Below are positions 6,030 through 10,661 of a stretch of 39,810 nt of DNA, one piece after another. Source of the stretch: Candidatus Moraniibacteriota bacterium (GTDB lineage Bacteria > Patescibacteriota > Minisyncoccia > Moranbacterales > UBA2206); assembly GCA_030679985.1 (NCBI GenBank), contig JAUXSI010000045.1, forward strand, positions 1 through 39,810. The letters are read 5' to 3'. Below the pieces are notes generated by a model. The model ran no database searches, had not been told where the DNA came from, and saw only the letters and a program-made list of their open reading frames with translations. Every line of letters begins with the position of its first letter. Position 1 is the stretch's first letter. A program made the translations under genes and the position numbers.

Positions 6030-6150
6030 TGTTTTGGCGGCGTCCTACTTTTCCTAAGCTAATGCCTAGATATCATCGGTGCTGAAGTGCTTAACTGCCG
6101 AGTTCGGAATGGGATCGGGTGTGACCACTTCGCTAGAACCACCAAAACAA
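6030..6150 (-). rRNA. rrf: 5S ribosomal RNA
   Basis: Minus strand carries the conserved 5S core (CGAACTCGGCAGTTAAGCACTTCAGC; TAGGAAAAGTAGGACGCCGCC). Ends approximate. Confidence 0.9.
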
Positions 6151-6479
6151 TGCTCTTTTTAAAATGCGTTTATGACCGGAGCGAAAAACAAGAAAGTAAA
6201 TGTCGCAATCGCGATTACGGAAAAGATTATGAAGATGAACTTCAAACTTTCCCCATACTTATTCAGATACATTTTCTTATTTTCATCCATTGTAAACATA
6301 CTATATGGTCTTATCATGTAAGTCAAATGCCTTGTCGGATGCCGTTTTGACCGGATCCGACTGGAGCCATTAGAAACTATTAACTGCTAACCGATCTAGC
6401 GACAAGTAACACGAGACACGAAACAAGAAAACTTGTTGCATGTTGCATGCTACACGCCACTAAAAAATTTAAATTTAAG

Positions 6480-9660
<3,181 letters not shown>

Positions 9661-9875
9661 TAGTTCGCTCGTATCGAAATGATACAAACGAACCGACCAG
9701 CAATTAGTAATCACTAATTGCTATATTTGAAATCTTCATTATATTCTCGCCTTCCGCAAGACTGCGAAAAATGATAATTCAGACTTCGACGTTATTCGAT
9801 TGTCAAGGTCCGTCTAGTGCGGAAATATTGATCTTTAAAGCCCAATTTATCGACCAATATTTCTGCACAAGGAAC

Positions 9876-9899
9876 AAAAAACCGCTTCGGGAGAAGCGG
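9876..9899 (-). terminator. Intrinsic terminator between the promoter and the 23S gene (attenuator-like)
   Basis: Minus strand CCGCTTC-TCCC-GAAGCGG followed by TTTTTT. Confidence 0.75.
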
Positions 9900-9928
9900 A
9901 GCAAGGGCAAATAGAAACACCCAAAAGT

Positions 9929-9970
9929 TTATCCGCTTCTTTTTATAAGGTTTATGGAAATATTTCTCAT
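9929..9970 (-). CDS. Possible 13-aa leader peptide (MRNISINLIKRSG)
   Basis: ATG AGA AAT ATT TCC ATA AAC CTT ATA AAA AGA AGC GGA TAA in the 23S leader; its last codons form the 5' antiterminator arm. No clear Shine-Dalgarno. Confidence 0.3.
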   Translation of the reverse strand: MRNISINLIKRSG

Positions 9971-10018
9971 TTAATTCGCTAAAAATTAGATTTTATTTTG
10001 TCTTTACCGCGCTTAAGC

Positions 10019-10047
10019 ATCATATTATTTTTCCAAATCCTTGTCAA
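10019..10047 (-). promoter_or_regulatory. Sigma-70-type promoter upstream of 23S
   Basis: Minus strand TTGACA - 17 nt (AGGATTTGGAAAAATAA) - TATGAT. Confidence 0.8.
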
Positions 10048-10073
10048 GCGTTCGCCCAACTGGAAAATATCAA

Positions 10074-10661
10074 TTATGCCTCATTCCTTATCTGCCCCAT
10101 AATTTCACTTATTTTAAGGCGCAAATCATCTTTTGAACCGTTATTCTCAAGCCTAAAATCGGTTTTTTTTCCAATTTCCGGAATTTGGACTTCGGTTTCG
10201 GCTTTTTCGTATTCTTGAAATTTTTCAAAACTCACTGCGTCGTCTGATTTTTCGCCCCGATCGTATATTCTTTCCCATCGCGCTTTACTGTCCAGAGTGA
10301 CATAAATTACATGTGAATTTGGGAAACTTTTTACAAACTCGAAATCTTCTTTTATTCGCATGCCGTTAAGAACAATAATTCCCTCGTTTACCCTATCAAA
10401 CTTTCTTCTTAAGCTATCCGAGATTACTCCGTTTTTATACTTTCTTCGGATATTATTGGAGAGCCAGATCATGTCTTCCCGACCAACCTCTTCCTTGGGT
10501 AGAAATACTTCCAGCGCTTCACGAAGCGGATCGCTGAATCGGAAAAGATGTGCGCCGTATTTATTTTCCAGATAGTCCGCTGCCGTATCCTTCCCGGAAC
10601 CCATTTCGCCCACCAGACCGATGATTATTTTTTTTGTTCCCTTTTGCATATGAGCAAACAA
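10074..10661 (-). CDS. P-loop kinase, dephospho-CoA-kinase/deoxynucleotide-kinase-like
   Basis: IGLVGEMGSGKDTAADYLENKYGA Walker A. A start at MQKGTKK is more likely than the upstream M. Confidence 0.65.
   Translation of the reverse strand: MFAHMQKGTKKIIIGLVGEMGSGKDTAADYLENKYGAHLFRFSDPLREALEVFLPKEEVGREDMIWLSNNIRRKYKNGVISDSLRRKFDRVNEGIIVLNGMRIKEDFEFVKSFPNSHVIYVTLDSKARWERIYDRGEKSDDAVSFEKFQEYEKAETEVQIPEIGKKTDFRLENNGSKDDLRLKISEIMGQIRNEA

Follow-up and report, generated by a model that had tools for sequence, protein, structure and literature searches.

A likely leader-ORF transcription attenuator upstream of the unlinked 23S rRNA gene in Patescibacteria

Leader-peptide transcription attenuators are used by the trp, his, and ilv operons. 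These attenuators share with the patescibacterial leader described here a short leader ORF, an antiterminator and an intrinsic terminator that exclude each other, and, by inference for this leader, a ribosome that favors termination when it stands at the end of the upstream ORF (uORF). They control biosynthetic operons, whereas the patescibacterial leader precedes the 23S rRNA gene; this leader also contains no run of regulatory codons and its peptide is not conserved, the conserved feature being a stop codon on arm 1, the 5' arm of the antiterminator. Bacterial uORFs can report the state of the ribosome in other ways. For example, Escherichia coli toiL, located upstream of topAI (PMC12121999), does so by stalling at uORF codons, but its target is a protein gene, whose translation and Rho-dependent termination it controls. 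The antitermination system of boxA, NusB, and uS10 (PMC10931766) also acts on rRNA elongation, and a boxA-like element follows the patescibacterial terminator; however, that system needs an RNA-loaded protein complex and involves neither a leader ORF nor alternative hairpins. In the ribosome feedback model of Nomura for E. coli, translating ribosomes likewise feed back on rRNA synthesis, and the source of this feedback has been described as controversial (PMC2320978). Feedback on rRNA in E. coli acts mainly at initiation. In contrast to the Nomura model, the element proposed here acts in cis within a leader. Autogenous attenuation of a ribosome component is also known from L10(L12)4 on rplJL of Bacillus subtilis (PMC10931766), wherein the ligand is a free ribosomal protein instead of a translating ribosome and the target is an mRNA. 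A leader-ORF attenuator on an rRNA gene was not found in the literature searched, which was partial and left most subscription journals outside; an earlier note on this locus, made without database searches, knew of no leader-peptide attenuator on an rRNA operon either. The element is of a known kind and is apparently new on rRNA, a claim limited by that partial coverage.

The window is the whole stretch of DNA that was analyzed, 39,810 nucleotides of contig JAUXSI010000045.1 (assembly GCA_030679985.1), and comes from a Moranbacteria-type patescibacterium. On its minus strand the gene order is gyrB, nusG, rplK, rplA, a dNMP-kinase-like gene, the leader, 23S, and 5S (Table 1). The promoter, the leader of about 135 nt, the uORF, the arms, and the terminator that the earlier note had placed on this strand all held base for base. 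Its naming of the upstream gene as CoaE-like failed; the protein matches AAA_18 and, just below the cut-off, deoxynucleotide monophosphate kinase. The promoter lies about 400 nt 5' of 23S, and a transcription start near 10012 (minus) is expected from sequence alone. The uORF reads ATG AGA AAT ATT TCC ATA AAC CTT ATA AAA AGA AGC GGA TAA. An Rfam search of positions 9600-10100 found no family above the gathering cut-off except the edge of 23S, and the remaining best matches were at chance level. For the long hairpin between terminator and 23S, mir-16 was rejected, the Rfam matches being weak and at chance level. When the leader of the window alone was compared with shuffled sequences, no folding-stability signal was found (z -0.24). 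Chance cannot be excluded from the window alone because its leader is no more stable than the shuffles; the single sequence is statistically unremarkable, and the case therefore depends on comparison.

Table 1. Positions of the leader elements and neighboring genes in the window.
Feature	Position	Strand	Remark
dNMP-kinase-like gene, 5' neighbor of the leader	10074..10661	minus	last in the gyrB-nusG-rplK-rplA-kinase series; outside the switch; also the neighbor in f9 relatives
Sigma-70-like promoter of the 23S-5S unit, TTGACA-N17-TATGAT	10047-10019	minus	11/12 consensus
Leader RNA, about 135 nt, inferred start to U-tract	9876..10012	minus	covariance-model match 9876-9986
uORF, 13 codons, MRNISINLIKRSG then stop	9970-9929	minus	start, length, and stop position kept in relatives
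Arm 1, AGAAGCGGA, antiterminator 5' arm	9940-9932	minus	overlaps the final three uORF codons; covaries with arm 2
Antiterminator inner helix, 9922-9918 with 9909-9905	9905..9922	minus	predicted fold; window z only -0.8
Arm 2, TCCGCTTCT, common to antiterminator and terminator	9900-9892	minus	
Intrinsic terminator: arm 3 GAAGCGG (9888-9882) and U-tract T6 (9881-9876)	9876..9888	minus	
Long hairpin GTGCAGAAATATTGGTC...GATCAATATTTCCGCAC, between terminator and 23S	9817..9868	minus	probably precursor rRNA
GACCTTGACAATCGAATAAC, counterpart of the conserved boxA-like element (GAACTTTGACAACTGAATAG in relatives)	9791..9810	minus	read from relatives
23S rRNA, proposed controlled gene	6479..9649	minus	RF02541, 2564.8 bits; start about 9649
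5S rRNA	6032..6146	minus	RF00001; transcription unit with 23S likely common

The plan of the leader is shared by 16 of the 17 family-level loci with a readable 23S upstream region, in the order TTGACA promoter, uORF ending in (A/G)GCGG(G/A)-stop, arm 2, and terminator with U-tract. Covariance models of the leader, which had no knowledge of reading frames, were used for the order search (R1), the class search (R2), and the phylum search (R3). Matches were found in 33 of 132 genomes of the order and in 59 of 387 genomes of the class (Paceibacteria), one copy in each, and in 17 of 382 genomes of the phylum, 9 of them outside the class. Because the search filters were strict, these counts are minima. 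The distance from leader to 23S in the matches is nearly always 84-640 nt; for 47 of the 48 new matches of the class search, 23S follows 84-632 nt downstream, and the contig of the remaining one has only 311 nt left. Of the nine matches outside the class, eight precede 23S; the remaining one, G720 (L237), has no 23S nearby and was rejected, and two weak extra R3 matches (L228:182-277 and L250:5656-5745) were left out. Among named relatives, a GTDB-wide scan for the exact pattern returned Candidatus Moranbacteria/Moraniibacteriota, unclassified Patescibacteria, and one Candidatus Elulimicrobium; unrelated, mostly GC-rich genomes that also matched did not have the uORF in its conserved context and were put down to chance. 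Within the genus, a DNA similarity search with the 501-nt upstream region gave no match in the sole other member, which is explained by the resemblance of the window contig to another family.

An unbiased sample of 60 loci was taken from a class-wide search for 23S genes, picked regardless of leader. At E<1, R3 matched 40 of the 60; every match preceded 23S on the same strand as the rRNA, and the 205 kb of these loci contained no other. About a third of the 23S upstream regions of the class are thus unmatched by R3, and some of them apparently carry other leaders; the 20 negative loci include L241, a likely contaminant with 16S upstream, and L261, which has no upstream sequence. A model-free scan for exact matches required a terminator, an arm 1 complementary to arm 2, and an ATG-started uORF stopping at arm 1. 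It found the full architecture in 17 of 58 23S upstream regions chosen blind to the leader, whereas dinucleotide shuffles averaged 0.1 and the antisense strand gave 0. Manual reading of R3-negative regions revealed the same plan with other arm sequences in L258 (uORF MITYQTSETLSG then stop), L246, L253, L264, and L299, which were excluded from the counts; in L299, GCCAACC of the uORF can pair with a terminator-adjacent GGTTGGC. Other leader types also occur before 23S, with a promoter and hairpin but no clear uORF in f10 (L242, L296) and a conserved leader without an obvious terminator in f23 (L265, L267). The relatives are mostly draft metagenome-assembled genomes, and the shuffle counts overstate independence because the sequences are related.

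The uORF is conserved at the sequence level and is not a chance ORF. An aligned start codon is present in 122 of 126 leaders (119 ATG, 3 TTG); no recognizable start codon was seen in G084 (L154) or in the class members L279 and L288. Thirteen codons is the length in 63 leaders, and most have 12-14. All three stop codons are used (TGA 58, TAA 50, TAG 14), and in 107 of 122 leaders the stop is placed between -6 and +12 nt relative to the arm 1 core, compared with a mean of 46.9 (maximum 61) when the bodies were shuffled. In-frame stops are absent from 291 uORF body codons of 28 leaders, where the other two frames contain 36 and 20 and the shuffle mean is 28.6. Conservation at the amino-acid level is modest (BLOSUM column shuffle, P 0.008), and the aligned uORFs show no conserved residues beyond the arm-encoded Ser-Gly, the peptides differing widely. 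Regulatory codons for an operon end product were not found in the uORFs, whose target is an rRNA. In frame-variant members the peptide ends in EAG, WKR, GGGSV, or RRLQR, and the stop is still at or just past arm 1; because these off-frame variants keep the stop there, the position of the ribosome seems to be selected instead of the peptide. Enrichment of Shine-Dalgarno sequences was not significant (P 0.13), although a few leaders have a strong one, such as AAGGAG in L018. Since such pairing is not enriched, efficient initiation is not evident; the lack may suit weak initiation, yet it is also a caution. Translation of the uORF remains an inference, without ribosome-profiling data.

The alternative pairings are supported by compensatory change. 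Arm 1 spans the codons AGC GGN, wherein the N of the last Gly codon can be any of the four bases (G 27, A 24, C 20, T 13). Against the base of arm 2 that precedes CCGC, this wobble base forms GC in 21, CG in 17, AT in 9, and TA in 9 cases, and pairing is kept in 59 of 77 leaders, compared with a mean of 28.6 and a maximum of 41 in 2000 shuffles. The outer 1:2 pair also covaries (38/77 vs 25.8, maximum 37). When the partner was slid by 1-3 columns as a control, pairing fell from 90.7% to 32-50%. Alignments A3 and A4 were made with the models, and the count of wobble pairs was anchored on invariant cores. This covariation belongs to 1:2 and not to 2:3 because arm 3 is mostly U at the corresponding position. 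Covariation of 2:3 is weaker; nearly all relatives retain the GCGG and T-run of the terminator. The stretch that separates arms 1 and 2 repeatedly contains an inner helix, in differing sequences (TTTTAGA/TCTAAAA, GTTTAAG/CTTAAAC, TTTTAGC/GCTAAAA), and in 28 related leaders this segment folds better than shuffles (combined Z -5.5). In each of the 28 folded leaders, the prediction gives the antiterminator greater stability than the terminator, so that read-through should be expected unless a ribosome intervenes. The leader thus has the parts of a leader-peptide attenuator: a leader ORF between promoter and terminator, mutually exclusive 1:2 and 2:3, and an ORF end able to block 1:2. Termination itself is inferred, without expression data.

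These comparisons also bear on what the earlier note had left for checking. It had described 1:2 and 2:3 as mutually exclusive with the uORF stop on arm 1, which held on both comparative conservation and compensatory changes. The alignment of related 23S upstream regions that it proposed shows the arms, the pairing, and the uORF to be conserved across Paceibacteria and beyond, and the result it would have taken as refutation, arms not conserved among relatives, was not met. Its remark that no clear Shine-Dalgarno is present held, as many members, the window among them, have only a weak one or none, and its suggestion that the uORF may be chance failed.

A TTGACA promoter lies 5' of the leader in every relative examined, and no second conserved promoter was found between terminator and 23S in these relatives. 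The one exception among the 17 family-level loci, G024 (L012), has lost the uORF and terminator and keeps the promoter directly before the 23S precursor region, a pattern that fits a promoter serving 23S. In other families the kinase gene is absent upstream of 23S and the leader is still present.

Taken together, the leader is likely (probability roughly 0.78) a cis-acting transcription attenuator for the patescibacterial 23S-5S unit with unlinked 16S. Comparison shows the promoter, the uORF, its stop position, the covarying 1:2 pairing, the terminator, and the linkage to 23S; translation of the uORF, termination, the direction of the effect, and the physiological signal behind it are inferred, with no RNA-end, ribosome-profiling, or reporter data. 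In the proposed mechanism, the promoter would transcribe a leader encoding a short uORF ahead of 23S, and a ribosome at the uORF stop would mask arm 1 while the polymerase makes arms 2 and 3. With arm 1 masked, the 2:3 terminator would form and transcription would end at the U-tract, ahead of 23S. Should the stop not be reached by a 70S ribosome in time, arm 1 and the inner helix would capture arm 2 and transcription would read through into 23S. The stopping place of the ribosome would matter and the peptide hardly at all. A terminating ribosome covers roughly 12-15 nt beyond the decoding site. The start codon lies a median of 34 nt from the arm 1 core, and because an initiation complex does not usually reach that far forward, the state sensed may be a joined, elongating 70S ribosome and not a waiting 30S subunit. 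More translation of the leader would mean less 23S output, a negative feedback on the synthesis of the 50S subunit. Such feedback on 23S-5S, with translation favoring termination, had been suggested by the earlier note and is supported by the architecture; translation and direction remain inference.

The best surviving rival is that the same device senses ribosome stalling, caused by amino-acid shortage or an inhibitor, instead of ribosome abundance, so that a stall before arm 1 would free 23S as in trp. The architecture is that of a leader-peptide attenuator, and read-through would follow from a stall at any point upstream of arm 1. However, this reading is unlikely: apart from the Ser-Gly that the arm encodes, the widely different peptides share no conserved amino acid, and more 23S on starvation would oppose the stringent response, RelA/SpoT being present in 73 of 94 class genomes. 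The same count means that the attenuator does not merely stand in for the stringent response, and replacement of that response was rejected as a general rationale. The bin of the window (G000) has no RelA/SpoT domain match, and neither has any sampled f28 genome.

A second rival, already raised in the earlier note, is that the leader serves mainly as a small RNA that ends at the terminator after about 135 nt and acts in trans, with 23S transcribed by leakage or from another promoter. Promoter to terminator is indeed a compact unit that occurs once per genome. This is nevertheless very unlikely, as body and loop sequences are poorly conserved whereas the pairing and the stop position are conserved, 23S is always adjacent, no conserved promoter follows the terminator, and a competing 1:2 structure would be purposeless in a free RNA. 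A free RNA may still arise as a by-product, and a dual role is not excluded, but it leaves the uORF, the stop position, and the 1:2 covariation unexplained. That the terminator merely ends the transcript of the kinase or another upstream gene, with uORF and arm 1 incidental, is suggested by the kinase gene lying just 5' on the same strand in the window, and it is highly unlikely: the TTGACA promoter separates the upstream gene from the terminator in all relatives examined, the leader is kept in families without the kinase here, arm 1 covaries with arm 2, and the uORF is conserved. An arrest peptide that stalls its own ribosome on a small molecule would suit a short conserved uORF before a ribosome component, but is highly unlikely, since the C-terminal Ser-Gly is dictated by the sequence of the arm and the architecture persists in off-frame members that end in other residues.

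Unlinked rRNA genes are common in CPR bacteria and were reported in 27 of 34 circularized CPR genomes (PMC8172020). Here, 16S was found in only 1 of 59 23S upstream regions, that of the suspect L241, and the two genes lie on separate contigs in those relatives whose contigs are long. Each of the 13 unlinked 16S genes examined in family f1 (L004, L035-L046) is preceded, at 180-530 nt, by its own promoter and by a leader that includes a terminator hairpin. The hairpin arms change together (ATACATC...GATGT-T6 or ATACAGC...GCTGT-T6), often with a CGGGTGA motif, and no conserved uORF was recognizable in the 13 examined; this is a second, different attenuator-like leader. A boxA-like element similar to CTTTGACAACTGAATAG is conserved in relatives, placed after the 23S leader terminator and also before 16S; we take the form in relatives given in Table 1 to resemble the boxA of Gram-positive rRNA spacers, and no binding data exist. 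Insertions or introns may be present in many 23S genes of the relatives, since these extend over 3.2-5.1 kb or are matched by the model in several separate pieces.

The window contig (G000:C21) belongs to a bin that is placed in f1. Over 205 nt, the 23S of the window shares 99% identity with that of G086, a member of f9, and only about 77-82% with that of most f1 members; the kinase neighbor is also an f9 trait. Both observations indicate f9, so the window contig is probably mis-binned. The 16S of this bin may come from another organism; the argument for the attenuator is independent of binning.

Feedback of ribosome activity on rRNA synthesis is a long-standing question, and a large bacterial group seems to encode such feedback in its DNA, as a sensor of ribosome occupancy right before 23S. 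The leader might also suggest how genomes with unlinked 16S and 23S balance the two subunits. A bolder and still only possible reading is that it is a dedicated 50S homeostat that substitutes for operon linkage, since sensing of joined 70S ribosomes would turn the device into a sensor of 50S. If this is true, a shortage of 50S subunits would specifically release the transcription of 23S, and the unlinked 23S would be kept in step with 16S throughout a bacterial radiation.
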